Translations under genes and position numbers: made by a program
In this document: in pieces, positions 3,189 through 44,700 of the stretch
Position numbering within the stretch: the first letter of the stretch is position 1
Layout of the letters: every line of letters starts with the position of its first letter
Notes under the pieces: generated by a model
What the model was told of the DNA's origin: nothing
Seen by the model: only the letters and a program-made list of their open reading frames with translations
Database searches by the model: none
Assembly (NCBI GenBank): GCA_024698125.1
Contig: JAILRQ010000046.1
Coordinates: 1 to 45,855, forward strand
Direction: 5' to 3'
Length of the DNA stretch: 45,855 nt
From: Acholeplasmatales bacterium
Lineage (GTDB): Bacteria > Bacillota_I > Bacilli_A > Acholeplasmatales > Anaeroplasmataceae

Positions 3189-3397
3189 AGTCAATCCTCC
3201 ACATCTATATTATCATATTTCGCATTTTTAAACAATATTAAAATTTGCGAAATAATTTGTTTGTTACCTAAAGTTGTATACATTTATATTTCCGTTTTAA
3301 TTTTATGTCAATTATACTAAAACTAAAACAATAAAAATGCGAACACTATGAATCATTATTTTCTTGATTAATTATAGAAAACACATCAATTTGTCAA

Positions 3398-4486: not shown

Positions 4487-4551
4487 TTCTTTTATCCATA
4501 TTATATATTTTTTTGTTCTTAATAATAAATAGCAAACTGTAATTATCTCTT
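4472..4551. repeat. Proximal copy of 80-bp direct repeat at the rpsI 3' end (putative att site)
   Basis: Identical to 1762-1841. Confidence 0.9.
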
Positions 4552-4947
4552 TGAGAATTGTGGAGCACGACGAGCCTTCTTAAGACCGTACTTCTTACGC
4601 TCCTTAGCACGTGGGTCACGTGTAACAAGACCAGCTGGCTTTAATGTAGCACGGTAGTCTGGGTTAACCTCCATTAATGCACGAGTGATTCCTAGACGGA
4701 TAGCTCCAGCTTGTCCAGTCATTCCTCCACCAAATACATTAACGATTACATCGAACTTGTTTAAGTTCTCAGTAAGCTCAAGTGGTTGAAGGGCGTCAAG
4801 TCTAGCTAGAGGGTTAGTAATATACTCCTCGAATGCTCTACCATTAACAGTAACCTTTCCTTCACCTGCTTGTAAAATAACTCTAGCAACAGAAGTCTTA
4901 CGACGTCCTGTTCCGAAATATTGAACCTTAGTATTCTTCTTAGCCAT
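4543..4947 (-). CDS. rpsI: 30S ribosomal protein S9
   Basis: [15 protein letters not shown]...[16 protein letters not shown]. Confidence 0.98.
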
Positions 4948-4964
4948 GTTTCAGTACCTCCTTA

Positions 4965-5399
4965 TTAGTCCTCTACCTTATATTCAACTGGCTTTTGAGC
5001 AGCATGTGGATGCTCAGCTCCAGCGTAAACATAAAGTTGATTTCTCATTTGATCTCCAAGCTTAGTATGAGGAAGCATTCCGTAGATTGCGTTCTCAACC
5101 ATTCTTGTAGGGAACTTAGTCATAACCTCAGTAGCAGTTAGAGTAGTTAATCCTCCATTGTATTCTGAGTGATGAATGTATAGCTTATCTTGCCACTTGT
5201 TTCCTGTTAACTTGATCTTCTCAGCGTTAATAACGATTACGTTATCTCCACAGTTAACATGAGGAGTGTAAGTAGGCTTTCCCTTTCCTCTTAATAAAGA
5301 AGCAACTTGAGTTGCAAGTCTTCCTAGTGTCTTGTTTGTAGCGTCAACTACATACCAATTCTTTTGTACAGTTTGATTATTTGCCATATAAGTTTTCAT
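4965..5399 (-). CDS. rplM: 50S ribosomal protein L13
   Basis: [25 protein letters not shown]...[13 protein letters not shown]. Confidence 0.98.
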
Positions 5400-5512: not shown

Positions 5513-5546
5513 AAGAGGGTGGCTATTCGCCATCCTCCTTAGTATT
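5513..5546 (-). terminator. Intrinsic terminator embedded in the 3' end of the signal peptidase gene
   Basis: Reverse complement GAGGATGGC-gaata-GCCACCCTC-TTTTTT; the TAG stop lies at the loop. Confidence 0.85.
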
Positions 5547-6233
5547 TTTATTTTCCTCTTCTATTTCCTTTAATAGCTCCTCACGCATCTCATCAAGAAG
5601 CTGCTTTTTAAGCTCATCATCGCTTATTTCAGTCTTACCTGATTTCTTAAGCTTTTGCTTATTCCTTACAAGATAGATATTAACACTTTCGGTTAATATT
5701 ATTAATAGGAATACAGCTATTAATAGTCCATAGATTAGATTTTTGTTTGACGCAAGCTTACCTATATTTAAGAAATTAAATGTTCTTACATATATTCCTA
5801 TAAGCATCTCTTCTGTAACTAGCTCATCATCATTTACGGTATTATTATCACCCTTTACTACAAATCCTTCATCTGTGATTTCAACTATTCTATGAACTAT
5901 ATATAGTCCTTTAGTTTCACCAGACTGTGATTTATAGATGATGATATCTCCTACCTCGCATGAATCATATGATGTTTTTTTGAAGATAATTGAATCTCCA
6001 GCCTTAATGGTTGGCTCCATACTTTCTGTTGGTACATAAGAGTATGAATATCCAAAATAGCTTACAGGCTTTTCTTCTCTTACGGCTATTACATTACATA
6101 CAAGCATATATATTATAAGTAATACGATTATTCCTGTAAGAGTCCCTACTCCAATCTTTAATCCCTTTTGCACCTTAGGTGGTAATTTGGATTTTAGCCT
6201 TTGTAGTGGTCCTTGCTTTTTAGTCTTCGTCAT
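5523..6233 (-). CDS. Signal peptidase I, SipW/ER type
   Basis: VPTESMEPTIKAGDSIIF catalytic Ser; YIVHRIVEI with His in place of the bacterial Lys; VVKGDNNTVND; N- and C-terminal TM segments. Confidence 0.88.
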   Translation of the reverse strand: MTKTKKQGPLQRLKSKLPPKVQKGLKIGVGTLTGIIVLLIIYMLVCNVIAVREEKPVSYFGYSYSYVPTESMEPTIKAGDSIIFKKTSYDSCEVGDIIIYKSQSGETKGLYIVHRIVEITDEGFVVKGDNNTVNDDELVTEEMLIGIYVRTFNFLNIGKLASNKNLIYGLLIAVFLLIILTESVNIYLVRNKQKLKKSGKTEISDDELKKQLLDEMREELLKEIEEENKNTKEDGE

Positions 6234-8880
6234 TTTCCTTTGCCTTTGCAGCTAGTGCCTTTGCACGAATTGCTTCACGTCTACGACGTAATAGCTCACG
6301 TGGATCAACCTTTTCACTAGATCCCTCTGAAGTAGGCTCTACTGGACGAGCAGTGCTACGTTGCTCTAAAGCTCTTTGCTTTAAAGCCTCACGTCTACGT
6401 CTTAGAACCTCTCTTGGATCCTCTTCTTGTGCAGGTGTAGGTGCTGGTGCAGCACTTTCCTGTGGTGCAGTACCATTAGCTTGTGCTTGACGTTGTGCAA
6501 GTAATGCACGACGACGAATAATATCCCTATTACGCTCAAACATTGCAGCAGATGCTCTTTGTGGTGCTACTACCTCTGGTTTAGACTCCTCTTCGTCGTC
6601 CTCTGCAGAAACTACATCACTTGATTGCATCATGCTCTCTTGAGCACGTTCCTTCTTACGAGCTTCGAATAAAGCCTTATTATCAAGAGGCTTTTCTTCA
6701 TCCTCATCCTCATCTACGACTCTAGCTCCAGCCTTATCAGCTAATGCCTTTTGTCTAATAGCCTCACGTCTACGACGTAATAGCTCCTTAGGTGATAATG
6801 ATTCCTCACTAGGCTCTTCATCTGCCTCATCTGATGAGAAGTCATTTAATAATTGATCTAGCTCATCATCAATTGCCTTAACCTCTGCATTCTCTTGCTC
6901 GTCCTCAGCCTCGTCCTCTGCTTCATCAGCAAGGGCGGCCTTTGCGGCTTCCTCCTTAGCACGGGCTGCAGCAGCCTTAGCCTTAATAATTTCACGTCTA
7001 CGCTTAAGGATTTCCTTAGCATCAAGGTGAGCCTTAGAAGCTTCTAGCTCCTTCTCCTGCTCCTCTACCTTTTTAGCTTCTGCCTCAGCCTTAGCCTTAG
7101 CCTCTTCTCTTTCCTTAGCCTTTGCTTCACGAGCAGCCTTTCTTTCAGCCTTAGCCTTGGCTTGCTCAGCAAGAATACGTGCTCTACGCTCCTGTAGCTT
7201 AGCCTTAGTAGCCTCTTGAGCAGCCTTCTCCTTAGCACGGGCCTCATCACGCTCAGCCTTAAGCTTTGCACGCTCTTCCTTAGCCTTAGCCTCTAGCTCC
7301 TCTTGTCTACGTCTTGCCTCTTCACGCTCAGCAGCACGCTTTGCAGCACGAGCTGCCTTCTCTTCAGCAAGCTTCTTAAGTCTAGCCTCACGAGCCTGTT
7401 GCTGACGAATCTTCTCTTCTGTAGATTGAATCTCAGCAAGTGTATCCTCGTATTCCTTCTTAGTATTATTGTAGTCAACTTCCTTAAGTCTAGTAATAGT
7501 CTCTAAAACGTCTGCTTTCTTCTTAGCACGCTCTAGCTTAACTGGAAGTGGTGGTTCCTCAAATTCATCCTCAAATGGTATTTCAAATAGAGGTGGGTAA
7601 ATTGAGTTAATTACCTCCTGCATCTCTCTAAATACTAACTCAAGAGAGTATTTCTTCTCCATACCAGAGTTTACCTTATCCTCAAGGGATTGCTGGTAGA
7701 ATTCCTGTGTCTTATTTAAGAAATACTCAGACATCTCAAATTTCTCAATATTTTGAGAATCTGGCTTGAACTTATACTCGTCATCCATCTTACTTAGATT
7801 ACGAGCATTACGATATGTATGTGACTTGAATAGGTCAGAGTTTTCTAGATCTCTTGATCCGTTATAATATAGCATTGTACCAACAGAGTTTGCAAAAATC
7901 TTATCAACTGTTGATGCCATTTCATCTGAATACTTATTCTTTTTCTCACGTACATTTACGTCGAACGCTAATTGGTTATATCTATCTAGGAAAATCCAAG
8001 TATTATAACAAATCTTGAACTCAGGGTTCTTTGTGATAATGTTAGTCTTTTGAATAGGAGGTACAACCTCTTTATAATTCTTTAAGGCTTGCATTAGCTG
8101 TGATGAACGAAGAGACTTGAACTTCTCTTGTACGTCCTTTGCCTTCTCGAAGGTATCACGAGCCATCTTAACCTCTGACTCCTGCTCAGATTCCATCTTA
8201 ACAGATAATTCAACCTTAACCTTAGTCTTATCCTCTAGCTTGAAATCATTAGTGATAACTGTACTACGTGTCTCATATGAGTCTAGGTTCTTCTTCATAA
8301 TTTGAATACGAAGTGATAAGAACTTACAAATACGGTTAATTAATGTCTTAATGAAACGGTTCTCATATATTCCAAGCTCATCCTCAGAGAATGTTGTTAA
8401 TAGCTTTGATGGAATAATGTCTCCATTTTCCTTAACCTGCTTGATAAATTGTGTATGTGAAGATAAGTGTCTAACTGTATCAGAGTTGACCTTCTTTACC
8501 TTCTCCATTGGCACAACCTCTTCCTCATAACGAATTGCCTTCTTAGGATCCTTTAGAATCTTTGAAATACTCTTAAAGCAGTCGTTTAATACAGGAATGA
8601 ATGATTTTTCAAAAATTTTAGTTTCACGAATAGTCTTTGAGTAAACTGTCTTCTTTCCACCTTGGATTTGCTTAAATAAAGCAGCTCCCATTGATGACTT
8701 AGTAACACTACCCTTTAGGCTTTCCTCGAGAATGTGGTAGAACTCTGCTACCGATGCATCGTTTTTCTCTGCCTCAGTTGGCTCTAAGACTTGTCCATCT
8801 GAGCTATTTCCATTCTCATTTACTTGTTCATCAACCTTAATAGGCTGTTCAGTCTTTTGCTCTTCTTCCACATTGCTCAC
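6220..8880 (-). CDS. Coiled-coil protein with DUF2357/McrC-partner-like N-terminal region and six-copy basic C-terminal repeat
   Basis: N-terminal half includes ENRFIKTLINRICKFLSLRI; long E/A/K/R coiled coil; repeats such as DPRELLRRRREAIRAKALAAKAK. Overlaps the signal peptidase start by 14 nt. True start may be GTG 8871 (GGGAGG 8 nt upstream). Confidence 0.6.
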   Translation of the reverse strand: MSNVEEEQKTEQPIKVDEQVNENGNSSDGQVLEPTEAEKNDASVAEFYHILEESLKGSVTKSSMGAALFKQIQGGKKTVYSKTIRETKIFEKSFIPVLNDCFKSISKILKDPKKAIRYEEEVVPMEKVKKVNSDTVRHLSSHTQFIKQVKENGDIIPSKLLTTFSEDELGIYENRFIKTLINRICKFLSLRIQIMKKNLDSYETRSTVITNDFKLEDKTKVKVELSVKMESEQESEVKMARDTFEKAKDVQEKFKSLRSSQLMQALKNYKEVVPPIQKTNIITKNPEFKICYNTWIFLDRYNQLAFDVNVREKKNKYSDEMASTVDKIFANSVGTMLYYNGSRDLENSDLFKSHTYRNARNLSKMDDEYKFKPDSQNIEKFEMSEYFLNKTQEFYQQSLEDKVNSGMEKKYSLELVFREMQEVINSIYPPLFEIPFEDEFEEPPLPVKLERAKKKADVLETITRLKEVDYNNTKKEYEDTLAEIQSTEEKIRQQQAREARLKKLAEEKAARAAKRAAEREEARRRQEELEAKAKEERAKLKAERDEARAKEKAAQEATKAKLQERRARILAEQAKAKAERKAAREAKAKEREEAKAKAEAEAKKVEEQEKELEASKAHLDAKEILKRRREIIKAKAAAARAKEEAAKAALADEAEDEAEDEQENAEVKAIDDELDQLLNDFSSDEADEEPSEESLSPKELLRRRREAIRQKALADKAGARVVDEDEDEEKPLDNKALFEARKKERAQESMMQSSDVVSAEDDEEESKPEVVAPQRASAAMFERNRDIIRRRALLAQRQAQANGTAPQESAAPAPTPAQEEDPREVLRRRREALKQRALEQRSTARPVEPTSEGSSEKVDPRELLRRRREAIRAKALAAKAKENDED

Positions 8881-8907
8881 CTCCCACTAATATCATTTTA
8901 TTTTTTA

Positions 8908-10470
8908 TTAGCTTATCTTCTTTAAATCGTTAATATAATCTTGTGATACAGCGAATGCTCTCTTACCAAATAGCTTATCTAGTAAAGCACTTAGCTGATC
9001 AAGCTCATTACGTAGGAATGAAAGGTTTAATGATTCAAACTTACGTAGGATCTTATTACATAGCATGTAATCAAGACCTTCAATTTCAGTAAATCCACAT
9101 GCGATATAGCATGGAACGAATAATCTAATCTGCTTCATAATACGGTTTCCGAATGCAATCTTGAACTTTGCTTGGATGAAATCATCAAGCTTCATAAATG
9201 ATTCCATAACTCTTGCAGAAATTGTAATGTCTCTTTGAGCTGCCTTGAATAGCTCATCAATATACTCAAATGACATTTGTACATTTTCAGTATAAGGTGC
9301 ATCAACTAGCTCAGCCTTATGGTTGATAACGATAGGTAGGGCACGGTCATAAACCTTATCTGTGATTGTAAATGTAGAGTCGTCCTTGTTGGCTGTTCCA
9401 ATGAACCAAATATTTTGATTAATTAATAACTTACCATTAATGAATAGCTTTGGATCAGTTGGATCAGAACCAGATACAACATCAATTAACCATTGAGATG
9501 GGTCTGGCATTTCCATTACTGATAGGAACTCAGCAAAATAGTACTCGATACGGGCAAGGTTCATCTCATCTAGTACGATGAAGTTAGGCTTGTCAGAGTA
9601 TCCTGCTTGATATACACACTTTAAGAAGTCTGTTTCATTAAATCTCTTTGTAAACTCATTTAAGTATCCAAGTAACTCAGCACGGTCACGCCATGAAGGC
9701 TGTACTGAAATAATTGATGCTGGCTTATTAAAGAACTTACCCATTGCGTATGGTAGGGAAGTCTTTCCTGTTCCTGAAATACCCTCTAGGATAAGAACCT
9801 TAGATGTTCCCATACCTGCAATATAACGGGCAATAACTGGCTTAGCATAGTATAGGTGTAGCTGTGATGCAGCATATCCAATGAATCTATCACATAGTCC
9901 ACTTAAATCAAGCATGTCATTAGAAGTCATAATTGTATATTCTGGATTTGATCTATAGAAATTATCAACCTGAATAAGCTTAATAAATCTACCAGTATAC
10001 TCCTCTTGCTCCTCTTCCTCAGCAGGTGCTAATTGAGGGTTGAATAGGTCATCTGGATTAACCTCAGTTTCTCCACCAGAGATTTGGCTTACACGTAGGG
10101 CAAGAATCTTATTCTTCTCATCTACAAGCTCTACTACCTTCTTGTTTAGTAATTGAACCTGATCAATAAGCTCATCCTTTTCGATTTCTCTTCCTCTAAA
10201 CTTGTTATATCTCTTACATAGAATTACGATTAATGTAATTAGTAAAACGATAAACGCAATGTTAATAAATAGAACAACAACATATGCAACCCAGTCTAGT
10301 GCATTCCATTCACTATTGTGAATAGATGCATCAGCTAAATCCTTAAAATAATTCTTAATGTCTGTTCCAAACCACTTTCCAAAGGCTTTTCCTATACTTG
10401 AAAAGAATGTACCAAAGTTTTTAAAGAATGCCTTTAAAAAGTTATAATAATATCTAGCAAATTCACTCAT
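8908..10470 (-). CDS. Membrane-anchored McrB-like AAA+ ATPase
   Basis: TM WVAYVVVLFINIAFIVLLITLIVIL; Walker A EGISGTGKTSLPYAMG; SVQPSWRDRAELLGY; Walker B NFIVLDEMNLARIEYYFAEFLS; WFIGTANKDDSTFTITDKVYDRA. ATG 10470 preceded by GGAAGGAGAG. Confidence 0.88.
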   Translation of the reverse strand: MSEFARYYYNFLKAFFKNFGTFFSSIGKAFGKWFGTDIKNYFKDLADASIHNSEWNALDWVAYVVVLFINIAFIVLLITLIVILCKRYNKFRGREIEKDELIDQVQLLNKKVVELVDEKNKILALRVSQISGGETEVNPDDLFNPQLAPAEEEEQEEYTGRFIKLIQVDNFYRSNPEYTIMTSNDMLDLSGLCDRFIGYAASQLHLYYAKPVIARYIAGMGTSKVLILEGISGTGKTSLPYAMGKFFNKPASIISVQPSWRDRAELLGYLNEFTKRFNETDFLKCVYQAGYSDKPNFIVLDEMNLARIEYYFAEFLSVMEMPDPSQWLIDVVSGSDPTDPKLFINGKLLINQNIWFIGTANKDDSTFTITDKVYDRALPIVINHKAELVDAPYTENVQMSFEYIDELFKAAQRDITISARVMESFMKLDDFIQAKFKIAFGNRIMKQIRLFVPCYIACGFTEIEGLDYMLCNKILRKFESLNLSFLRNELDQLSALLDKLFGKRAFAVSQDYINDLKKIS

Positions 10471-10509
10471 ATCTGCTCTCTCCTTCCAAGGACTCAATCA
10501 TTTTTACTT

Positions 10510-11514
10510 TTATTCTTCGTCCTTATCACTACTATCTTCTGTAGTGCTTTCTTCTTCATCGGTTTTTGTTTCTGCATTTTCCTTTGCAGCGGCCTCCTGC
10601 TCTGCTCTTAATTGAGCTAGAAGCTCTGCCTTCATTTTCTCTCTTTCTTCCTCAAGAGATTTCTTCATTTCTTCCTTTTCTGCTTCTTGATTTGCACTCA
10701 TCTTAGCAGTCTTGATATCCATGATATTCTTAATTACCATAAACATTTCAAATATTAGGAATGCTCCAGTAAATAGAACAACTATTACAAATCCCTTCTT
10801 TGGATTTGATAGCCAATTAATAAAGTTTCCAGCCCCGCTCCAGTGTCCAATATAAACAGCCTTAATATCACTTGATGATTGAACAATTTGAATAGGTCCT
10901 GATGTATATTGATAAGTATAAATGGCTAAGGCTTTCTCTGCATCAGTTAATGAATTATAATCCTCTGCAGTACCCTTATAAATATCTCCTTGTAAAACAT
11001 AAGCTGAGATGCTACCATCTGTTGCATAAACAAAATCTACGATTCTGTGGGTATTTAAAAATCCTTCAGTATTTGATGTTGGGTTTTCACTTACTGTATC
11101 CCAGAATGTTACGACATCTCCAATTTTAAGCTTTGAAGCTTTAAAGCTTGTATTTACCCAAATTAAGTCTCCTGCATCAAATGTAGGCGACATTGAGTTA
11201 GATGCTACAACCTCGTATCCTAATCCAAAAACATTCTTAACCTTTCCATTTTTAGATCCTGCGATTTGTGAAATAGAGAAAAGTAAAAGAATAAAAATAA
11301 ATGCATAGAAAATAGAATTAACAACGATGTTAGTTATATACAATGCTTTTTTCTTTTTGCTTTCTTTATCTAAAGCAGCATCCTCTCCTGATGCTGGAAC
11401 ATCTTCTTTTGTATTATTTGCAGCTACTGAAGACTCTTCGTTAGTGTCATTTGTAGCTACTGAAGCTTCTTCATTAATATCTTGGTCATTATTATTTGAA
11501 AAATCGTTATTCAT
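10510..11514 (-). CDS. Signal peptidase I, SipW/ER type (second copy)
   Basis: VVASNSMSPTFDAGDLIWV; FLNTHRIVDFVY (His); VLQGDIYKG; C-terminal TM and charged tail. ATG 11514 preceded by GAAAGGAG. Confidence 0.85.
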   Translation of the reverse strand: MNNDFSNNNDQDINEEASVATNDTNEESSVAANNTKEDVPASGEDAALDKESKKKKALYITNIVVNSIFYAFIFILLLFSISQIAGSKNGKVKNVFGLGYEVVASNSMSPTFDAGDLIWVNTSFKASKLKIGDVVTFWDTVSENPTSNTEGFLNTHRIVDFVYATDGSISAYVLQGDIYKGTAEDYNSLTDAEKALAIYTYQYTSGPIQIVQSSSDIKAVYIGHWSGAGNFINWLSNPKKGFVIVVLFTGAFLIFEMFMVIKNIMDIKTAKMSANQEAEKEEMKKSLEEEREKMKAELLAQLRAEQEAAAKENAETKTDEEESTTEDSSDKDEE

Positions 11515-11620
11515 AACAACAGCTCCTTTCTCAAAAATACCTTTATTATATTTTATCATATTTGTAATTAAAATAAAATACTCATTTATTTTATAAATGG
11601 TCGCATTATTTATTAAATAA

Positions 11621-11655
11621 CAAAAAAGCGATACTTCTATTGAAATATCGCTTAG
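11621..11655 (-). terminator. Intrinsic terminator after the TasA-like gene
   Basis: Reverse complement AAGCGATA-tttcaatagaag-TATCGCTTTTTT. Confidence 0.85.
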
Positions 11656-11676
11656 ATGTTATTCAAGCAACTAGTC

Positions 11677-12675
11677 TTATGCAGTATAATCTGAAGTCTT
11701 GAATGTTAATGTTTGAGTTAGAGTTTGAGCGAAGATTGCGTCGAAGCAGTCTGCATCATATCCCTCTAACCAATAAGTAAATGTAAATCTGTAGATTGAA
11801 TATGCTGTAGTATTAGTTACTAAAGTCTCTCCTTGGAATCCATCTGCTGAAAGAAGAGAACCATTAGATGTTACATAATTTGTATCAGCTTCATATGTTC
11901 CACCTGAGAAATCAGTTCCTAATACAGCCTCAATGTATGCATTAGCACAGTTTGAAGCAGCAAGAGATTGTCCCATATTATAAACTGTTGAAGCTGATGC
12001 TGTTCCAGTGTAAGTAGTAGTTCCAGTAGTATATCCAGCAATCATTTGAGCTCTTGTATTAGCTGTTACTTTAGCCTCGAATGCATCAACTGCTCCTGTC
12101 TTATCAGCTTGAGCCATTTCTGTACCTGCTGCAGTAGATACAGCGTTAGTTACATCAACTGTTCCACGTAATGCGTTAAGTGCAGAAATCACAGCCTTAT
12201 CTCCTGCATTGTATGAAACAGAAGTTCCAGCATAGTTATTGAATGTGAATCCCTTAGTTAAAGTATATGCTGTTGGATCAGTACTTGCTGTTGTATCTGT
12301 ATCAACAGTGATATTCTTTGCAGCTGAAGTTACCTTTACATACATAACTGCTTGCTTGTAGTTAGTACCAGCATTAACCTCATTACCAGACATATCTACT
12401 AAATCATCATCACTAGATAGTGTTCCAGCAGTTCCTTGAACATAAGTTGCAGCATTTAACTCAGTAGAGCTAAAGTCAAAATCAACTGTAGATCCCCAAG
12501 AGAAGCAGTCATCAGAGATTTGAATTGAGTCTGTTGATGATAGAACCTTGATTGTAGTTGTTGCTGTTACTGTTGCATTAGTTGTGAACCATGCAAATGT
12601 TGTTGTTCCTAGTGCTACGACAGCGAATGCCATAGATAGGATACTTAATAATAATTTTCTCGAAATTTTCTTCAT
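11677..12675 (-). CDS. Secreted TasA/camelysin-like surface protein (SipW-type signal peptide)
   Basis: MKKISRKLLLSILSMAFAVVALGTTTFAWFTTNATVT; C-terminal FTYWLEGYDADCFDAIFAQTLTQTLTF. ATG 12675 preceded by AGGAGAAAGG. Confidence 0.75.
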   Translation of the reverse strand: MKKISRKLLLSILSMAFAVVALGTTTFAWFTTNATVTATTTIKVLSSTDSIQISDDCFSWGSTVDFDFSSTELNAATYVQGTAGTLSSDDDLVDMSGNEVNAGTNYKQAVMYVKVTSAAKNITVDTDTTASTDPTAYTLTKGFTFNNYAGTSVSYNAGDKAVISALNALRGTVDVTNAVSTAAGTEMAQADKTGAVDAFEAKVTANTRAQMIAGYTTGTTTYTGTASASTVYNMGQSLAASNCANAYIEAVLGTDFSGGTYEADTNYVTSNGSLLSADGFQGETLVTNTTAYSIYRFTFTYWLEGYDADCFDAIFAQTLTQTLTFKTSDYTA

Positions 12676-12763
12676 ATTTACCTTTCTCCTTTTCGTTTTT
12701 ATTATTATATTTTCCTTGTTTTTTTCATTTTTTGACAACAAATATTCCTGTGTCCTTAACCTA

Positions 12764-12792
12764 ATTATACCACCGGTATGGTAGTAATTCAA
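12764..12792 (-). promoter_or_regulatory. Promoter with overlapping palindromic element
   Basis: Minus strand TTGAAT-17 bp-TATAAT; TACCA-TACCGG-TGGTA inverted repeat (12768-12783) in the spacer and -10 edge. Confidence 0.6.
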
Positions 12793-12810
12793 GTTTTTTT
12801 GATATACTCG

Positions 12811-14319
12811 CTATGCTTGCCATACGCTAACGAGATACCATACCTCACCTTCTACTGTTGGCTTTACAGTAGTGTTTGCGAAATCGAATAATGTATAGCT
12901 ATCTGTTACATTTCCATCAGCGTCAATGTAATTACCATTCTCATCTGCTCTAGCCCAGCCAAGGAATGAAGCTGTACTATTCTCGATGTACGCAGGTGAA
13001 TCATCCGAAATCAACATGTTGTAAACCTGATTTCTAGTCTTACTGTTATCAATAATAGCTCCTGTTGTAGGATCTGTTACAAGATATGTAAGAGTAGTTG
13101 GATCATTTTCTACAAATGTGTCGTAGTTTGTAAATGACATATCAAATGTTAGCTGTTGATCTAATACTGTATCAATACAATCAGCATCCCATCCCTCAAT
13201 CCATAGAGTTAATGTCATTTTAGCGGTACCAGTTTGACCATAATTATTATCAGCATTTAAAGAAATAATCTTTGCTGCTTCAGTCGTATCTAATCCCTTA
13301 TATGTATCTGGAACGTCAGTATAACTTATGGCATCAATCGTACTATCTGTTCCTGTTCCTGCATCAAGCTCTGCCTGACGGACTGTATTGTAGTATGTTA
13401 ATGCTGCATTCTTATTTCCGTCGTAAGCTGCTCCCGCAGTTCCTACATATGTTGTATTAGATGAAGTGCTACCACTTTCTACCATTGTTGTTGCATATGA
13501 ACCATTTCCTTTATTTAGCTCATATAGTCTTACATCAGATGTTGTCTCCGTTCCACTAGCATTTGTCGATGTAGTAGTTAATGTAAAACGAGCAGCATCT
13601 GAAATATAGGTTCTAAAACTATCCTTGAAGGATGTTGTTATATCATTGCCTTCATAATCTGTAGCAATGTCTGAACCCGCATTATAATGAATAATCTTTC
13701 CTGTAGATTGGTCATATGTATCAAATGAAGCCAAAATACTGTCTGGGAAAGTCATTGTGTCTTGACCTACAGTCTTAAATTCAGTCTTCGGAATAACAGT
13801 ACCATCCTCATATGTAATAGTTCTATTTGAGAAATATACATCCTGAGGGTTTCCTGAAACTGACATAAAATATACATCAAATCTAAAATAATATTTTGAA
13901 TTAATGCTCATTTCAGTTCCGTTAAGTGTTCTAAATACAGTTCCGTTTGTTGTAGTAACAGGCTTAAAACTCATAGAGCTCATAAAATCCTCTACATTTT
14001 CATCTGTTACATCAACATATGTACCTTCTTCTGCATCATACCACTTATCTATTTTATCAGCCTCGCTCCACACAAGCTCCCAACCATTTGCATATGCAAT
14101 CATTGAAGATGCAATTTGCTTATTTGTTAGCTTTGAAGAATAGTTTACACCATCAACTGAGATTTTTAAGTCCTCGTTAGTCTCAGCGCCTAGCTCCATA
14201 TCACTAAACCACGCATTGGTATTAAGCTTAAACCATGCGAATGTTACAGTTCCAGCCACTACAAATAGTAAAACTAGAGTTAGCAAACTAATATAAAGTT
14301 TTCTTGATAAATTAATCAT
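12811..14319 (-). CDS. Secreted TasA-like surface protein (SipW-type signal peptide), larger paralogue
   Basis: MINLSRKLYISLLTLVLLFVVAGTVTFAWFKLNTNAWFSDMELG; C-terminal LTLWIEGWDADCIDTVLDQQLTFDMSF. Confidence 0.72.
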   Translation of the reverse strand: MINLSRKLYISLLTLVLLFVVAGTVTFAWFKLNTNAWFSDMELGAETNEDLKISVDGVNYSSKLTNKQIASSMIAYANGWELVWSEADKIDKWYDAEEGTYVDVTDENVEDFMSSMSFKPVTTTNGTVFRTLNGTEMSINSKYYFRFDVYFMSVSGNPQDVYFSNRTITYEDGTVIPKTEFKTVGQDTMTFPDSILASFDTYDQSTGKIIHYNAGSDIATDYEGNDITTSFKDSFRTYISDAARFTLTTTSTNASGTETTSDVRLYELNKGNGSYATTMVESGSTSSNTTYVGTAGAAYDGNKNAALTYYNTVRQAELDAGTGTDSTIDAISYTDVPDTYKGLDTTEAAKIISLNADNNYGQTGTAKMTLTLWIEGWDADCIDTVLDQQLTFDMSFTNYDTFVENDPTTLTYLVTDPTTGAIIDNSKTRNQVYNMLISDDSPAYIENSTASFLGWARADENGNYIDADGNVTDSYTLFDFANTTVKPTVEGEVWYLVSVWQA

Positions 14320-14395
14320 TCGTTTATCAACCCCTTTAGGTTAGCTCTAAACATTTACCGACATTTTATATAAATAAAATCGTAAATACCACATA

Positions 14396-14423
14396 ATTAT
14401 ATAATATTTTGATTTTATGTCAA
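14396..14423 (-). promoter_or_regulatory. Sigma70-type promoter for the 12811-14319 gene
   Basis: Minus strand TTGACA-16 bp-TATAAT, followed by a ~75-nt leader with an ATTTAC...GTAAAT stem-loop. Confidence 0.65.
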
Positions 14424-14435
14424 TAATGTTTTTCT

Positions 14436-15272
14436 TTATACTAAGCTTTCATGATATGCTTCAAATGACATACCAATCTTAAGCTTTCCTTCAATAATTC
14501 CCATTCTTTCATTATTTTCTCCATAATATGCAACACAATCAGGATCATTTCCATCAAGCCACATAATTATAGAAATTTTATAATCCTCACCTGGATTAAA
14601 GTCTAGGAATGTAGTGTTATAGATGATATTCTCATCATCATCCTCTGAATAATCTGCATTCCAATCAACTGTATCCTTGTAAGACATATTAGCGATTGCT
14701 GCCTGGTAGGCTTCTTCATTTTCCTCGCTAGATTCTGCCTTCTTATAGATAGTACCTGTTGTATCCTTTGTAGAATATACAAGCTGTCCATCCTCTTCAG
14801 TTCCGTGAGAAATGAAGACCCAGAATCTTGCAGCTGATGCTACATCACGAGTATTTTCAGTAATCTTAAATGTGGTTTCAATATCACACGCTTCAGTTCC
14901 TGTATTACCTAAATAGAAGGTATATCCAATATAATTTCCAGCATTTGATGTATATCCACCATCATTATTTAATACAAAATATTCATTTACCTCTGGTTGA
15001 GAGATTGGCTGTGCATCTGAATACTCAGGTGCATTTAAGCTTTGATCTCCTTCACCATCAACTGATTCCTTAAGTACTATTCCCATACCACTTAATTCAT
15101 CATCAATATTAATTGTAAATCCTCCAGTACTCAAACCATAGTATGTTACAAGACCAATAGTTGTAGCAAGTAGTAAGAATAATACAATTAATGTTACTAT
15201 TAACTTTTTCCTTCTAAACAAGCTGACCATACGGTCCTTGGCAAGCTTTTCTGATAAATTACCCTTTGCCAT
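14436..15272 (-). CDS. Membrane-anchored/secreted protein related to the TasA-like paralogues
   Basis: N-terminal TM KKLIVTLIVLFLLLATTIGLVTYYG; C-terminal IIMWLDGNDPDCVAYYGENNERMGIIEGKLKIGMSFEAY. Confidence 0.65.
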   Translation of the reverse strand: MAKGNLSEKLAKDRMVSLFRRKKLIVTLIVLFLLLATTIGLVTYYGLSTGGFTINIDDELSGMGIVLKESVDGEGDQSLNAPEYSDAQPISQPEVNEYFVLNNDGGYTSNAGNYIGYTFYLGNTGTEACDIETTFKITENTRDVASAARFWVFISHGTEEDGQLVYSTKDTTGTIYKKAESSEENEEAYQAAIANMSYKDTVDWNADYSEDDDENIIYNTTFLDFNPGEDYKISIIMWLDGNDPDCVAYYGENNERMGIIEGKLKIGMSFEAYHESLV

Positions 15273-15307
15273 ACTTGGTTTTCCTCCATCATTAATTTAC
15301 AATTCAT

Positions 15308-15352
15308 AAAAAACAGTTGCAATATCGTAATAATCTACTGATACAGCAACTG
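15308..15352 (-). terminator. Intrinsic terminator, expression platform of the c-di-GMP riboswitch
   Basis: Minus strand CAGTTGCTGTATC...GATATTGCAACTG-TTTTTT; 5' arm overlaps the 3' end of the aptamer. Confidence 0.8.
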
Positions 15353-15414
15353 GCTATCCACATGGGACCCTATAGCTTTGCGTCACTAGATTACTCTAGT
15401 TTAGCCTTTTACTC
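15344..15414 (-). ncRNA. Cyclic di-GMP-I (GEMM-I) riboswitch aptamer
   Basis: Minus strand GAGTAAAAGGCTAAACTAGAGTAATCTAGTGACGCAAAGCTATAGGGTCCCATGTGGATAGCCAGTTGCTG, with GEMM signatures AAAGGC-AAAC, GACGCAAAGC, GG-TAGCCAG-TTGC. Confidence 0.9.
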
Positions 15415-15420
15415 ATAGAT

Positions 15421-15449
15421 ATTATATACGATATTAAAAATTATGTCAA
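15421..15449 (-). promoter_or_regulatory. Consensus sigma70 promoter driving the riboswitch
   Basis: Minus strand TTGACA-17 bp-TATAAT immediately upstream of the aptamer. Confidence 0.88.
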
Positions 15450-15469
15450 TTTTTTATGCTTCCAAGAAA

Positions 15470-17281
15470 TTACTCCTCGTCGTCCTCTTCTTCATCAGAT
15501 TCAGAGTCATCTTCCTCTTCATCGCTATCCTCTGAAGCAGCCTTCTTCTTAGGCTCTTCATTTGCAGGTGTAGCCTCTAATTCTTCAGCTTCTGCCTCAG
15601 GCTCTACTGCTGCGGGTGCCTCGTTTGCTTCCTCAGTATTTTCTACAGGTGTCTCAGCACCTTCTGCTGTAGCTGCTGCCACCTCTTCAGTATTTTCTGC
15701 ATCAGCAACTGGTTCCTGTGCATTAACCTCTGCTGCAAGCTCTGCATCAGCATTTTCCTCTGGCTTATTAGCCTCTTGCTCCTTAGCAGGATCAAATGTA
15801 TGCTCATCCCACTTACGAAGTCTTATGAAGTCTGCTAGCTCAGCCTCAGAAATAGGCTTTGAATAGTAGTAACCTTGTCCTAGAGTTACTCCAAGACCCT
15901 TTACATACTCTGCTTGATCAGCAGTCTCAATTCCCTCTGATACAACAACACGGTGTGCAACCTCTGCTGTTTCAATAAGCATCTTAGCGAATTTCTCCTT
16001 AATAGACTTAGCCTCTTCCTTCTCAGCAGCAAGCTTTTCTGCATCTGATGTTGTAGGTCTAGGATTATTTGGATCTGCTTCAACCTCATCAAGGAAGAAA
16101 TTACGAGAAATCTTAATCATATCAATAGGCTCTTTACTAATCTTTGTGATTGTAGAGTAGTCTAGATCAAATCCGTCTACTGCGATTGTAAATCCTGCAT
16201 CACGAAGCTTTAGTAGGTTTTGCTTAACGTTATCCATCTTCTCAAACATTGCGTATCCTGAAATCTCAAGTACGATTGAAGATGCTGCAACTGATGCCTT
16301 CTTAGCAACTAGTACTAGGTCATCAGCTAGTGTTTCATATGTTAATTGCTTTGTAGATAGGTTAAGTGTTAGGTGGAAATCATCACCAACAAGTGGTTGA
16401 ACCTCCTTAAACTTAGAGCATAATAGCTCAAGTCCCCATTTACCTACCCAATAAATGTCTCCACTCTTTTCCATGATAGACATGAACTTAGCTGGTGGTA
16501 ATACACCTTGCTCTGGGTGGTTCCAACGCATTAAGGCCTCAAATCCATATACATTATCTGTATTGAGGTTAATGATTGGTTGATAGTATAGACAGAATTC
16601 CTTATTAAGGATAGCCTTCTTAATCTCTAAGAAGAACTTGTAGTTCTCTGACTCATCAGCAGCAAGAGTTCTATAGTACATAGTGTACTTATTTCCACCC
16701 TCACGCTTAGAAATATATGTTGAAAGCTCTAGATTCTTAATAAGCTCATCAGCACTTCTTCCGCATGATGGGTACATACAAATACCTGCAGATGCCGTAA
16801 GAGAAATAGAATCTCTTGTAGATACATAAAGCTTAACTCTTACATCAGCAAGTAGCTGATCAGTTACCTTACATACCTGCTCATAAGTTAGATTATCCTT
16901 AATGAAAATCATAAACTCATCATTACTATAATTTGAAATTACAGTTCTATAAGGGAATCTTTTAACAAAACGCTGTGCAATCTCTGTTAAGAACTCCTGG
17001 CATTGCTCACGACCGAATATGTCATTCATTGAAGTGAAGTTATCAATGTCTAGATAGATTAGAGTAAACTCTCCAAATCTTCCTACCTTCTTAATATAAT
17101 TTGAAATTGCTTTATCCATTTCAGCCTTAGTGATAGTTTGCTCTGTTAAATTATCACTTTCCTCATGGAACTTTCTGTAGTTGTACTTAATTAGGAAGAA
17201 AAATAGAACTCCTAATAAAATTACTGCTAGTACTGCTATTAATGTTACCATTAATGCACTGCTTCCTGAAACTAATAGCAT
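15470..17281 (-). CDS. Membrane-anchored degenerate GGDEF-EAL protein with acidic C-terminal tail
   Basis: NYSNDEFMIFI in place of GGDEF; YGFEALMRWNHPEQG intact EAL but VDGFDLDYSTITK in place of DDFGTGYSS; tail EEDDSESDEEEDDEE. Confidence 0.85.
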   Translation of the reverse strand: MLLVSGSSALMVTLIAVLAVILLGVLFFFLIKYNYRKFHEESDNLTEQTITKAEMDKAISNYIKKVGRFGEFTLIYLDIDNFTSMNDIFGREQCQEFLTEIAQRFVKRFPYRTVISNYSNDEFMIFIKDNLTYEQVCKVTDQLLADVRVKLYVSTRDSISLTASAGICMYPSCGRSADELIKNLELSTYISKREGGNKYTMYYRTLAADESENYKFFLEIKKAILNKEFCLYYQPIINLNTDNVYGFEALMRWNHPEQGVLPPAKFMSIMEKSGDIYWVGKWGLELLCSKFKEVQPLVGDDFHLTLNLSTKQLTYETLADDLVLVAKKASVAASSIVLEISGYAMFEKMDNVKQNLLKLRDAGFTIAVDGFDLDYSTITKISKEPIDMIKISRNFFLDEVEADPNNPRPTTSDAEKLAAEKEEAKSIKEKFAKMLIETAEVAHRVVVSEGIETADQAEYVKGLGVTLGQGYYYSKPISEAELADFIRLRKWDEHTFDPAKEQEANKPEENADAELAAEVNAQEPVADAENTEEVAAATAEGAETPVENTEEANEAPAAVEPEAEAEELEATPANEEPKKKAASEDSDEEEDDSESDEEEDDEE

Positions 17282-19701
17282 TACTCCTCACCCTGCTTTC
17301 CGTTACTCTTGTTTTCGCTTGAAACCTTACCTGTCTTTAATAAGGCAAAGGCATCTTCCTTAGATAAGGCCTTACCGATATAGTATCCTTGGATAATATC
17401 TGCACCAAACTTATGGACGATATCCTTTTGAACCTTTGTTTCAACTCCCTCGCAGATTACCTTATCTCCAAGTTCCTTACCTAGAGTAATAATCTTTGAA
17501 GTTAATACCTTACTAAATCTATCTGATTCAATATGCTTTATAAACTCCTTATCAACCTTAATTGTATCAATAGGAAGCTCCTTTAGATAAAGCATAGATG
17601 AATATCCTGTACCAAAATCATCTAGGTGGATTGAAATTCCACGATTCTTTAAGATTTGAAGCTTTTCAATAACTGTACTGAAGTTTTCCATTAGGAATGT
17701 TTCAGTAACCTCTAGGGCAATTGCTCCAGGTCTTAATCCGTTTTCCTCAAACTTCTCCAAGAAGTCTGCAACGAATCCTGCTTGAACAATTTGAGCAGGA
17801 GATACGTTTACTGAAATGTGGATATCATATTGCTCCATTTCCTTAGCTGTCTTGAATACATCCGAATTGATGAAGTTACCAACATCGATAATGAATCCAT
17901 TCTTTTCAGCCATCTTGATATATACCTCTGGTGAAATTGTAGCATACTTTGGATTATTCCAACGTAGCAATGCTTCAAATCCACATACACGCTCTTGGTT
18001 AAGCTCATATTGAGGCTGATAGTACATAACGAACTCTCCACGTTGGATGGCAAGCTTTAAATCCTCCTCCATCTCACGATCCTTCATAGCACTATTCTCA
18101 AGATTTACATCATATTTACATACATTTCTTCCAGCTCCCTTAGCACGGTTAGTTGCTGTAGTAAGCTTAGAAATTAGCATATCATAATCTATTTCTGTCT
18201 CTCCATCCATATCAGAGCCTAAAACTCCAAATGCAGGACGAAGCATAATCTCATTATTATTAATTTGGATAGGAGCCTTTAAATCCTCAAGCATCTTATC
18301 ACAAATCTTTAAATCTGAAACCTCATTACAGCTTGGATCAAGTATTACGAACTCATCTCCCTTAGTATGGAAGATTTCAAATCCATCGAAATATTCATGA
18401 AGCTTTTCTGAGAAGAACTTTAACACATCATTTCCTTGGTCAAATCCAAGTAATGTATTAATATCCTTAAATCCTCTTAGGTTAACCATAATAAATAGAT
18501 AAGGGTCCTTAACGGCATTATACTTGTCCTTAACCTCTCTATATCTTCTATCAAGAACTACTCCATTATCATCACCTGTAACAAGTGACTTAGTAGACTT
18601 CTCAATTAAAATCTTATGATCAACATATTCCTTAGTAATATCCTTACCAATTAACGAATAATCAGCACCACGCTTAGCTGAATAGAACTCAAAGTAAACA
18701 TCCTCATGCTCCTTCTCGCCCTGCTCATTCATCATACCAATCCATCCAAGAACAAACTTTCTTTGCTCCTTGATTAAATCCTTTAATGGAAGGTCTGTAT
18801 CCATTAGCGTTAAATCTTCCATTGAATTAATAGGAAGTGTCTTAGTTTCAAACGCTGCCTTAAATGGTCTGTTATAGGAAATAATCTTTCCATCTACCTT
18901 ACATACAACAACGGCATTTGAACCTCTAAGAGAAATTCCTGCATCTAGTGCTTGTCCCTTATTTAGCTTCTTAAATAGGAATACAAAGTTAATAATAATT
19001 CCTAGAAGTAATAGGCCTGCACCAATCCAATACATTAGTCTAAATTGGTTAATATCCTTTGATGTGATGATATAATCAGCATCAACGAATCTCAAAAGCT
19101 TATAAGAATCGTAATCATCAACAACGATATATCCATCCTGCTCACCAGAGGTTACAGTAAGAGATGCAGTATATACCTCTCTTCCCTCCTCCTGTGTCTT
19201 GCTAACAATCTTGTTAGATAATGTTGATGAATTAGTTCTAGTTAAAATTTCAAGAAGAGATGTGACACGTGAATTGTAATCAACATTTGATCCAATAACA
19301 CTACCACTATCTACAAGAAGGATTGCGTTATCCTCATCAGCTAGGGCATCTGCCATAACTGTTTGTAATGCAACTCTTCCATACTCACTACCATTTACAT
19401 AATATACATATCCATCAGATGAAATAGCATATGTATTATCTCCAAAAATTGAAGTATCAGAAACCTCTGTATCCTCTACAGCATCACTTCCATTAACAAA
19501 AAGTGTGTTATATTCAGAAATACTTGCATCAAGTGCAGCACTAGATGCATCATAGGCACTTTCACTTTGATAATATGCATTCTTGACTGTTGCAGTGTCT
19601 ACACCAGCCTGATAAACTGCAGTGATAGCAATTAAGCACACTAAGAAAAATATTAAAATTATTACATAAACCTTTAAATCTCTTGCGCGCATTCTTATCA
19701 C
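17281..19701 (-). CDS. Membrane sensor PAS-GGDEF-EAL protein, probable c-di-GMP phosphodiesterase
   Basis: Two TM segments flanking an extracytoplasmic domain; TKGDEFVIL (degenerate GGDEF); CGFEALLRWNNP, SVNVSPAQ, LEVTETF, HLDDFGTGYSSMLYLKELPIDTIKVDKEF, VICEGVET. Confidence 0.9.
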   Translation of the reverse strand: MIRMRARDLKVYVIILIFFLVCLIAITAVYQAGVDTATVKNAYYQSESAYDASSAALDASISEYNTLFVNGSDAVEDTEVSDTSIFGDNTYAISSDGYVYYVNGSEYGRVALQTVMADALADEDNAILLVDSGSVIGSNVDYNSRVTSLLEILTRTNSSTLSNKIVSKTQEEGREVYTASLTVTSGEQDGYIVVDDYDSYKLLRFVDADYIITSKDINQFRLMYWIGAGLLLLGIIINFVFLFKKLNKGQALDAGISLRGSNAVVVCKVDGKIISYNRPFKAAFETKTLPINSMEDLTLMDTDLPLKDLIKEQRKFVLGWIGMMNEQGEKEHEDVYFEFYSAKRGADYSLIGKDITKEYVDHKILIEKSTKSLVTGDDNGVVLDRRYREVKDKYNAVKDPYLFIMVNLRGFKDINTLLGFDQGNDVLKFFSEKLHEYFDGFEIFHTKGDEFVILDPSCNEVSDLKICDKMLEDLKAPIQINNNEIMLRPAFGVLGSDMDGETEIDYDMLISKLTTATNRAKGAGRNVCKYDVNLENSAMKDREMEEDLKLAIQRGEFVMYYQPQYELNQERVCGFEALLRWNNPKYATISPEVYIKMAEKNGFIIDVGNFINSDVFKTAKEMEQYDIHISVNVSPAQIVQAGFVADFLEKFEENGLRPGAIALEVTETFLMENFSTVIEKLQILKNRGISIHLDDFGTGYSSMLYLKELPIDTIKVDKEFIKHIESDRFSKVLTSKIITLGKELGDKVICEGVETKVQKDIVHKFGADIIQGYYIGKALSKEDAFALLKTGKVSSENKSNGKQGEE

Positions 19702-19792: not shown

Positions 19793-21745
19793 TTATCTAA
19801 CTATATCTCCAGGATTTAGATTAGAAGTAACAAGCTCTAGATTTTCATCTTGGGCATCGCTTGCACAAAGAAGCATTCCTTGTGACTCAACACCTCTTAG
19901 CTTAACTGGCTTTAGATTTCTTACTACAACTACCTTTTTCCCTACTGTATCCTCAGGCTTATACCATTTTGCAATACCAGATACGATTTGACGTACCTCT
20001 CCTCCAATGTTTACCTTAAACACTAAAAGCTTATCTGCCTTTGGATGCTTTTCAGCTGAAATAATTTCTCCCATAACTAAATCAAGCTTATCGAAATCAT
20101 CAATAGTGATTTCAGCCTTTTGTGGAGCAGCCTCTACTGCAGGAGTGCTATCCTTTTTCTTAGCCTCCTCCTTCTTTAATACCTCTTCCATTACCTTGTT
20201 AACATCAAGACGCTGGAATAATACCTCAGTTGGAGTAACGCTATAGCTTTCCTCCTTACCAAATACTAAATCACTAAAATTAACATTTTGTGTATGAATT
20301 GCATCATATACCTTCTTAGCTGAAGCTGGAATTGCTGGCTCTAGTAATACAGAACCAATTCTTATAGCCTCAAGTAGGTTATATAATACATTCTTTAATA
20401 CACTCTTCTTAGACTCATCCTTTGCAAGAACCCAAGGAGCTGTTTCATCAATATACTTGTTAGCGGCACGAAGCATCTTCATTGCCTCCTCAAGTCCATC
20501 AGCTACCTTAAACTCATCCATTAACACATGATAATGCTTAACAGCCTCATCAATTGTAGATAGAAGTGTATGCTCTGCATTTTCCTCAGTCTCATTATAA
20601 ATAGCATCTACCTTAGAAATAGCCTCATCTCCAAAATACTTCTTGCACATTGCAATAGTACGTGATACAAGGTTTCCATATGTATTAGCTAAATCACTGT
20701 TTGTTCTCTCGCAAACAAGCTCATATGTAAGGTTACCATCTGCCGCAAATGGAATCTCATGTAGGCAGTAATATCTAACTGCATCTACTCCAAATTGCTC
20801 AACTAGATCATCAGCATAAATAACATTACCCTTACTCTTACTCATCTTATTATGGTTAGTTAAAACCCAAGGATGTCCAAATACCTGCTTAGGAAGCTCT
20901 ACACCAAGAGCCATTAAAATAATTGGCCAATAAATAGTGTGGAAGCGTAGGATATCCTTTCCAATTAGATGAACATCTGCAGGCCAATACTTCTTAAATA
21001 GTGGATCTGCATCCTTATTAACATGGTATCCAATACCTGTAATATAGTTCATTAGGGCGTCAATCCATACATATGTAACATGCTTCTTATCGAACTTTAC
21101 AGGAATACCCCATGTATAAGATGTTCTTGAAACACATAGATCTGGAAGTGGATTTGCAAGGAAGTTATTAAGCATCTCATTCTTACGAGACTCAGGCTGA
21201 ATAAACTCTGGGTTCTTCTTGATATGCTCAATAAGACGTGGCTGATATGGAGTAAGCTTTAGGAAATAAGCCTCCTCAGAAGCCTCCTCAACAGGTCCTC
21301 CACAATCAGGACACTTTCCATCAACAAGATCCTTTTCTGTAAAATATGACTCACAGGCAACACAATATAGTCCCTTATAGGCCCCCTTATAAATATCACC
21401 CTTCTTATATAGCTTCTCAAATGCGTCAGCTACCTCAGCCATATGATAATCATCAGTTGTACGAATAAACTTATCATACTCAATATTCATAAGCTTATCT
21501 GTAGCCTTGATTTCATTTGATACATGGTCTACATGCTCCTGTGGTGTAATACCTAGGGCCTCGGCCTTCTCCTGAATCTTTTGACCATGCTCATCAGTAC
21601 CAGTCATGAAGTATGTATCAAATCCATCCTTCTTCTTATATCTAACAATTGCATCAGCTAAAATAGCCTCATAAACATTTCCAATATGAGGCTTTGATGA
21701 TGTATATGCAATTGCTGTAGTTAAATAGAACTTTTTATTTTCCAT
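19793..21745 (-). CDS. metG: Methionyl-tRNA synthetase
   Basis: YLTTAIAYTSSKPHIGNVYEA; NKMSKSKGNVI; C-terminal tRNA-binding domain. Confidence 0.97.
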   Translation of the reverse strand: MENKKFYLTTAIAYTSSKPHIGNVYEAILADAIVRYKKKDGFDTYFMTGTDEHGQKIQEKAEALGITPQEHVDHVSNEIKATDKLMNIEYDKFIRTTDDYHMAEVADAFEKLYKKGDIYKGAYKGLYCVACESYFTEKDLVDGKCPDCGGPVEEASEEAYFLKLTPYQPRLIEHIKKNPEFIQPESRKNEMLNNFLANPLPDLCVSRTSYTWGIPVKFDKKHVTYVWIDALMNYITGIGYHVNKDADPLFKKYWPADVHLIGKDILRFHTIYWPIILMALGVELPKQVFGHPWVLTNHNKMSKSKGNVIYADDLVEQFGVDAVRYYCLHEIPFAADGNLTYELVCERTNSDLANTYGNLVSRTIAMCKKYFGDEAISKVDAIYNETEENAEHTLLSTIDEAVKHYHVLMDEFKVADGLEEAMKMLRAANKYIDETAPWVLAKDESKKSVLKNVLYNLLEAIRIGSVLLEPAIPASAKKVYDAIHTQNVNFSDLVFGKEESYSVTPTEVLFQRLDVNKVMEEVLKKEEAKKKDSTPAVEAAPQKAEITIDDFDKLDLVMGEIISAEKHPKADKLLVFKVNIGGEVRQIVSGIAKWYKPEDTVGKKVVVVRNLKPVKLRGVESQGMLLCASDAQDENLELVTSNLNPGDIVR

Positions 21746-43362: not shown

Positions 43363-43381
43363 CAACTTTTTTTATTTTTTT

Positions 43382-44625: not shown

Positions 44626-44700
44626 ATAACCACCTCAATTTTATTATAGCAAATTTAAAAATAAAAAAAAGACATTTCAAAAATGTCTAATAATTAAAGA

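Follow-up and report, generated by a model that had tools for sequence, protein, structure and literature searches.

The DNA analysed here (hereafter the window) is the whole stretch of 45,855 nucleotides at positions 1 to 45,855 of the forward strand of contig JAILRQ010000046.1 (assembly GCA_024698125.1), from an Acholeplasmatales bacterium of the family Anaeroplasmataceae. It carries a locus in which a membrane-anchored, McrB-like AAA+ ATPase and its DUF2357 partner lie among genes for secreted proteins, signal peptidases and cyclic di-GMP (c-di-GMP) signalling, and its analysis suggests that a restriction machine has been re-used for the handling of cell-surface proteins. All nine co-oriented minus-strand open reading frames (ORFs) reported by an initial annotation, which had been made from the sequence alone, were recovered at the same positions, and the c-di-GMP-I riboswitch proposed among them was identified with the Rfam model RF01051. 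In the order of transcription, the locus begins with two GGDEF-EAL genes (gg1 and gg2) and the riboswitch; next come genes for three secreted or membrane proteins that are related to one another, and then four machinery genes, encoding a SipW-type signal peptidase, the AAA+ protein, its DUF2357/coiled-coil partner and another signal peptidase. The gene calls are simple ORF calls; the two GGDEF-EAL proteins, the two S26/SipW-type signal peptidases and DUF2357 are backed by matches to Pfam and NCBIfam models. The features are as follows:

17281-19701, minus strand: gg1, GGDEF-EAL protein with two transmembrane (TM) segments (Pfam EAL 8.7e-62, GGDEF 5.8e-13)
15470-17281, minus strand: gg2, GGDEF-EAL protein with one TM segment (Pfam EAL 8.4e-52, GGDEF 6.8e-18)
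15421-15449, minus strand: promoter-like site of the sigma-70 type, perfect TTGACA-17-TATAAT (12/12 consensus match), directly upstream of the aptamer
15342-15416, minus strand: c-di-GMP-I riboswitch aptamer (RF01051, 58.1 bits, gathering score 35, E-value 6.5e-9)
15305-15352, minus strand: intrinsic terminator with a T run, putative expression platform; its 5' arm (CAGTTGCTGTATC) overlaps the 3' end of the aptamer by 11 nucleotides
14436-15272, minus strand: secreted/membrane protein 1, 278 residues, with an N-terminal TM segment ending TYYGLSTGGF and no A-W-F site
14396-14423, minus strand: promoter-like site (perfect consensus match) between the genes of secreted proteins 1 and 2
12811-14319, minus strand: secreted protein 2, 502 residues, signal peptide end TFA/WF (cleavage A|WF), motif WIEGWDADC
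11677-12675, minus strand: secreted protein 3, about 332 residues from the ATG at 12675, signal peptide end TFA/WF, motif WLEGYDADC
11626-11653, minus strand: terminator-like hairpin between the last secreted gene and the machinery genes
10510-11559, minus strand: signal peptidase 1, SipW type, Ser122/His171 dyad, charged helical cytoplasmic tail (NF046067 2.5e-14, below the cut-off)
8908-10470, minus strand: membrane-anchored McrB-like AAA+ protein, with Walker A GISGTGKT, Walker B VLDEMNLAR and an NKDDS motif
6220-8880, minus strand: DUF2357 (McrC-N-like) protein, 886 residues, with a long coiled-coil-like C-terminus (Pfam 5.5e-11)
5523-6233, minus strand: signal peptidase 2, SipW/archaeal type, Ser71/His114 dyad, charged helical tail (TIGR02228 1.4e-23, above the cut-off)

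The same arrangement was found in many other genomes. A scan with one genome per species yielded 264 relatives of the AAA+ protein, and the best 80 loci were kept; these are mutually related, so that the counts below do not represent independent events, and fractions for neighbouring genes include only contigs long enough to tell. The loci come from Acholeplasmatales (Acholeplasma, Anaeroplasma and Paracholeplasma), Izemoplasmatales and Clostridia, and their gene maps repeat one order, namely (GGDEF-EAL, GGDEF-EAL), riboswitch, secreted proteins, Ser/His peptidase, AAA+, DUF2357 and peptidase. Co-occurrence with signal peptidases and secreted proteins, which the initial annotation had named as a check on its proposal, was observed for nearly all homologues of the main class: of the loci that could be judged, 62 of 65 carry a signal peptidase gene upstream of the AAA+ gene, and 50 of 57 carry secreted genes there. 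DUF2357 lies downstream in 59/64 and a second signal peptidase in 50/55, and GGDEF-EAL genes are present upstream in 28 of the 41 loci on long contigs. Because it recurs in most of the 80 loci, which belong to different genomes, the arrangement is far above chance and represents a real, co-inherited unit. When paralogous classes are included, a match to the AAA+ profile (E-value <1e-60) is present in 95 of 160 genomes of the order and in 78 of 391 good genomes of a phylum sample. One further genome (G005) contains the complete operon, packed more tightly than in the window; its riboswitches there precede the secreted genes and follow the gene of the second peptidase. Several tandem double loci were also observed (L036/L034, L040, L037 and L057, in our own locus numbering), in which a copy with a secreted protein of about 2,300 residues and no adjacent DUF2357 gene comes first, followed by up to four tandem riboswitches and then by the second copy. 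A spread into Omnitrophota, proposed on the basis of a single contig (L017), was rejected: its gene lengths are those of a Tenericutes bin (L016), and the contig is probably mis-binned.

At the centre of the unit is an ATPase whose NTPase motifs are intact. Its translation likely starts at the ATG at 10470, because Met10 of the ORF corresponds to the conserved first residue of its relatives. Identity to the window protein is 48-65% across the set; Walker A is invariant and Walker B nearly so, and the McrB-type NxD motif, in the form N-x-D-D-S, is present in all 80 of the 80 homologues of at least 480 residues. The N-terminal 130 residues contain one strong TM segment at about 73-93, followed by a conserved, charged, coiled-coil-like stretch. 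Neither FtsB/DivIC nor any DNA-binding family was matched by the window protein in Pfam, and DNA- or RNA-binding domains were not found in the unit. PDB searches with single sequences gave nothing useful, and a profile of 32 AAA+ sequences matched only E. coli McrB chains (E-value about 2e-4). In PADLOC, the protein matched PDC-M26A (1.8e-36), the best stretch being confined to residues 213-331; no match to PDC-M26 was obtained there for the DUF2357 partner of the window. By sequence, the protein is a McrB homologue, and the McrB-like membrane ATPase with a DUF2357 partner described by the initial annotation is borne out by the PDB profile, Pfam and TM prediction.

The DUF2357 domain was detected in 51 of 56 relatives of the partner protein. 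An AlphaFold2 model of its residues 36-480 (predicted local distance difference test score, pLDDT, 85.6) shows a long C-terminal helix, and E. coli McrC was its only high-probability PDB match in Foldseek (probability 0.96, E-value 0.02-0.09), a match that is weak alone and agrees with the Pfam assignment. Conservation fades near residue 300, and the remainder is variable, of low complexity and helix-prone; a conserved catalytic pattern was not found in this part. No PD-(D/E)xK or other nuclease family was detected in the 56 partners, and the unit contains neither a methylase nor a nuclease. The initial annotation had stated that its proposal would be refuted by homologues mostly lacking the signal peptidases and secreted proteins, or by a pair next to DNA methylation/restriction genes with a functional nuclease; neither check refuted it. 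A nuclease was also considered for the 886-residue protein itself and rejected, with no match in Pfam or PADLOC and none in the Foldseek list except McrC itself. Judged by these comparisons, the partner is a McrC-like protein with no detectable nuclease.

The link to c-di-GMP rests on both RNA and protein features. A model (R1) built from fifteen aptamers of the window and six other loci detected 76 aptamers in 81 sources; the window aptamer reaches 80.6 bits with R1, which was built partly from this same copy. Of the 42 loci whose upstream sequence is complete, 35 have a riboswitch no more than 600 bases ahead of the first secreted gene; of the 75 aptamers in sources other than the window, 56 have a secreted-family gene as their next gene. 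Arrays of tandem aptamers, with up to four copies (L057), were also seen. A terminator-like hairpin with a T run follows 73 of the 76 aptamers, and in 68/76 its 5' arm takes at least five bases of the aptamer 3' end; in a subset of 52 aptamers, 46 reached a score of 18, compared with 0.7% of sequences with shuffled downstream DNA. Because the aptamer and the overlapping terminator should be mutually exclusive folds, the riboswitch is predicted to be an ON switch at high c-di-GMP. In an independent check on 21 genomes with a main-class AAA+ gene, 74 copies of RF01051 were found, 43 of them within 12 kilobases of the AAA+ gene and all of these on the same strand; such a nearby copy is present in 19 of the 21 genomes, and RF01051 occurs in 2 of 9 members of the order that have no main-class AAA+ gene. 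The only other c-di-GMP-I riboswitch of the window genome (L167, G000:C72:1240-1318, 54 bits) precedes genes that read, by sequence, as aconitase, citrate synthase and isocitrate dehydrogenase.

With regard to the two GGDEF-EAL proteins, the EAL residues E, N, E, DD, K, E and Q of gg1 are near-invariant in 30 homologues and its GGDEF motif is not conserved; gg1 is predicted to be an active c-di-GMP phosphodiesterase with a degenerate GGDEF domain. The PAS domain that had been assigned to it was not found in the Pfam search. In gg2, GGDEF reads SNDEF and loop 6 of the EAL domain reads DGFDLD, the second Asp of this loop being Gly in 21 homologues and Asp in 13. Because of this Asp loss and the degenerate GGDEF, gg2 is likely not an enzyme and is a candidate membrane receptor for c-di-GMP. 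Taken with the conserved riboswitch, these c-di-GMP enzymes support the control by c-di-GMP put forward in the initial annotation.

Among the secreted proteins, an equivalent of protein 1 directly follows the riboswitch in most loci, and protein 1 is possibly an anchored subunit. Protein 3 was called as a 371-residue ORF and probably starts at 12675, since a Shine-Dalgarno-like sequence (AAAAGGAGAAAGG) precedes this codon. The signal peptides of most secreted relatives end in [FY]A/W[FYILV], with the cut after A. This agrees with TasA, a SipW substrate that is marked, according to a passage of PMC10269814, by an aromatic residue following the cleavage site. The term TasA/camelysin-like used in the initial annotation stands only in part: the TFA/WF signal-peptide end and the SipW-type context agree with it, as do a few shorter relatives with TIGR04088 (3/36) or BsaA (TIGR04090, 1/36), whereas the window proteins have no family match in Pfam or NCBIfam, and the model of protein 3, of modest confidence, has no significant PDB match. 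TasA homology by sequence or fold was considered and is not claimed, as no significant match was obtained; from their sequences, the proteins are best named SipW-type secreted proteins.

A Ser/His rather than Ser/Lys dyad is invariant in all 129 of the 129 signal peptidases. With the curated SipW equivalog model the two window enzymes score 60.3 and 53.3 bits, below its cut-off of 190, and by sequence both are of the SipW type and not SipW orthologues. The C-terminal tails of the peptidases are charged and helix-prone, with median lengths of 56 and 44.5 residues for the two positions, and they could dock to the coiled coils of the motor.

The genes of the window locus are closely spaced in two groups. 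The gg1/gg2 gap is -1 nucleotide, and the gaps within signal peptidase 1 (10510-11559), AAA+, DUF2357 and signal peptidase 2 (5523-6233) are 12, 27 and -14 nucleotides. A single transcript for all nine genes was considered and appears doubtful; because promoter-like sites and a terminator-like hairpin lie inside the locus, one of these sites being a perfect consensus match between secreted genes 1 and 2, the nine genes are probably not transcribed together in the window.

Paralogous AAA+/DUF2357 pairs were observed in other surroundings as well. Some lie beside giant C-terminally anchored proteins and a gene of the GGDEF/EAL type (L082-L084 and L093), and the gene in this position in L093 has both GGDEF and EAL matches. 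In L159, a riboswitch is followed by a surface protein of 3,334 residues, a 427-residue membrane protein in the GGDEF/EAL-type position and an AAA+ gene, so that c-di-GMP is linked to the pair once more, here with another surface protein. In L085, L086, L087, L095, L139, L140 and L147-L149, a single DUF2357 gene is accompanied by two or three AAA+ genes around it, and the giant repeat proteins nearby have one TM segment each; the triple sets with two giant repeat proteins are L085-L087, L095 and L139. Multi-TM forms of the AAA+ protein occur with signal peptidase or type-IV-pilin-like proteins (L088, L089, L094 and L141-L144), and in L088 the pair is surrounded by several large proteins whose N-termini resemble those of type IV pilins (GFTLVELLVVIAILAILA; match to Pfam N_methyl). 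In the genome G005, a c-di-GMP-I riboswitch lies upstream of a predicted surface protein of 5,605 residues (L160, 1313-18130, minus strand). That paralogous pairs stand beside giant surface proteins speaks for a role at the surface rather than in defence.

Part of this gene combination has been named before. Bell et al. (2024, eLife; PMC11090510) gave the name CoCoPALM to a clade of McrB proteins with the NxD motif, an FtsB-like TM/coiled-coil fusion and signal peptidases, and the article devotes one paragraph to it, deferring details to a later publication. The present locus fits this clade by its NxD motif, its signal peptidases and its coiled-coil McrC-like partner, and the peptidase genes are adjacent in both; its McrB-like domain likewise follows a TM segment and a coiled-coil-like stretch, for which Pfam gave no FtsB/DivIC match. 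The initial annotation, which knew of no described system combining these parts, is partly wrong in this respect, although the CoCoPALM passage of that article does not include c-di-GMP, a riboswitch, GGDEF-EAL proteins, the secreted substrates, or the tandem copies and giant-protein variants seen in the present loci. In a literature search, the name in this sense was found elsewhere only in the preprint of the same article.

Other known systems resemble individual parts of the locus. E. coli McrBC also combines a McrB-family AAA+ protein with a DUF2357 activator, whereas the present locus has NxD instead of NxxD, a membrane anchor instead of a DNA-binding domain, no detected PD-(D/E)xK nuclease and a surface-protein context. 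The tapA-sipW-tasA locus of Bacillus and the BsaA/SipW locus of Clostridium perfringens likewise place a SipW-type Ser/His peptidase beside secreted proteins cleaved at A/x-F, and a few of the secreted relatives match the cognate_SipW and BsaA models. To our knowledge, neither the TasA/SipW nor the BsaA/SipW loci contain an AAA+/DUF2357 pair or a c-di-GMP riboswitch. Riboswitches for c-di-GMP control adhesion and pilus genes, for example in Clostridioides difficile; such loci resemble the present one in coupling c-di-GMP to surface structures. They differ in how these structures are secreted and assembled, and the present operons showed no type IV pilus machinery. The literature search found no paper joining a c-di-GMP riboswitch and SipW, and nothing relevant on filaments of Acholeplasma.

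It appears reasonably probable that the locus is a c-di-GMP-switched surface-fibre or matrix locus, in which a membrane motor derived from McrBC assembles or remodels a complex of exported subunits and peptidases. We infer that, in vivo, high c-di-GMP would fold the aptamer and block the overlapping terminator, so that the secreted-protein genes are transcribed. The subunits would be exported by the Sec route, and those with the A/W-F site would be cleaved by the two Ser/His SipW-type peptidases; secreted protein 1, which has no such site, might stay anchored and serve as a base. On the cytoplasmic face of the membrane, the McrB-like AAA+ protein would form a hexamer that responds to stimulation by its nuclease-less, McrC-like DUF2357 partner, and docking would probably occur through the coiled coils common to the ATPase, the DUF2357 protein and the peptidase tails. 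Nucleotide hydrolysis could then drive the assembly, release or remodelling of the membrane-bound export and assembly complex. By lowering c-di-GMP, gg1 could turn the system off, and gg2, as a likely membrane receptor for c-di-GMP, might feed into the complex. A broader idea, which we regard as possible but less likely than not, is that the McrBC lineage has given rise to a general c-di-GMP-gated membrane motor that builds or remodels cell-surface structures. It would represent a new class of nucleotide-driven assembly machines for surface proteins that depends on neither sortases nor type IV pilus ATPases, one version serving SipW-type subunits and another giant anchored proteins.

Several observations weigh against the proposal of a surface-assembly motor. 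The riboswitch of the window may exert direct control over no more than secreted gene 1, and the beta-rich model of secreted protein 3 (pLDDT 69) had no significant PDB match that would confirm a fibre-forming fold. A few AAA+ copies among the 80 loci have no adjacent DUF2357 gene, and some of the paralogous pairs have no SipW-type signal peptidase genes. In L090-L092 and L151, AAA+ proteins of about 900 residues with 12-13 predicted TM segments stand next to DUF2357, with no obvious surface genes. Conversely, SipW-type peptidases, similar substrates and the riboswitch occur with no AAA+ pair in L162-L164 and L166, and such a motor is therefore not needed for every substrate of this kind. These four loci contain a riboswitch, short secreted proteins (signal end AYW or AFW) and two or three SipW-type peptidases, which suggests a wider c-di-GMP surface regulon beyond the AAA+ loci.

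The pair might alternatively be an anti-phage defence module of the CoCoNuT or McrBC type that happens to sit in a surface-protein operon. This would account for the homology to McrB and McrC and for the nearest annotated defence families, PDC-M26A for the AAA+ protein and PDC-M26B or LmuC for a few partners, all of which are candidates. The defence reading was set aside, as the PADLOC matches are partial and to candidate families only, and we consider it very unlikely: the unit has no nuclease, methylase or detected DNA- or RNA-binding domain, the ATPase is anchored in the membrane and holds a fixed place in a riboswitch-controlled surface operon in most loci, further paralogues stand beside surface proteins, and the gene is widely retained in the order (the 95 of 160 genomes given above).

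Two other explanations keep the pair at the membrane. It could be a membrane-remodelling or cell-shape machine of wall-less bacteria, with an FtsB-like anchor, and the envelope layer would then be merely co-expressed, with no direct mechanical coupling. The hosts are in many cases wall-less, the membrane anchor differs among several paralogous pairs, and the CoCoPALM passage reports the FtsB-like TM/coiled-coil fusion for the clade (PMC11090510). The pair is, however, also found in Clostridia loci and is tied to c-di-GMP control and SipW-type peptidases, and it is absent from about 40% of the order, so that it is not essential for division; we judge this explanation unlikely. Quite unlikely, in our estimate, is a cytoplasmic quality-control or extraction motor which would act on signal peptidases and unprocessed subunits instead of assembling them. 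AAA+ proteins commonly extract membrane proteins, the peptidase tails resemble the partner in being charged and helix-prone, and the pair sits between two peptidase genes; yet the operon offers no protease domain or partner, and paralogues occur beside giant anchored proteins with no signal peptidase.

If the surface-assembly motor proposed above is correct, a defence enzyme would have been repurposed for envelope biogenesis, and the named, uncharacterised CoCoPALM clade would gain a function, a signal and likely substrates. The unusual c-di-GMP machinery of Acholeplasma would then also have a possible explanation: a 2008 note on A. laidlawii reports 14 GGDEF/EAL proteins and describes them as absent from the mycoplasmal genomes sequenced before (PMC2408644).

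The genes on both sides of the locus have a housekeeping look. By names read from the sequences, the upstream neighbour (19793-21745) is metG-like, and ribosomal proteins S9 and L13 are encoded downstream (4543-5399), beside which a transposase-like ORF (198-1553) and an ATPase-like ORF (2001-3194) were noted from the sequence only. Near the other end of the window, an S10-Clostridia ribosomal leader was found at 43208-43313; 11 densely clustered tRNA genes and a 5S rRNA lie within 43208-45832.

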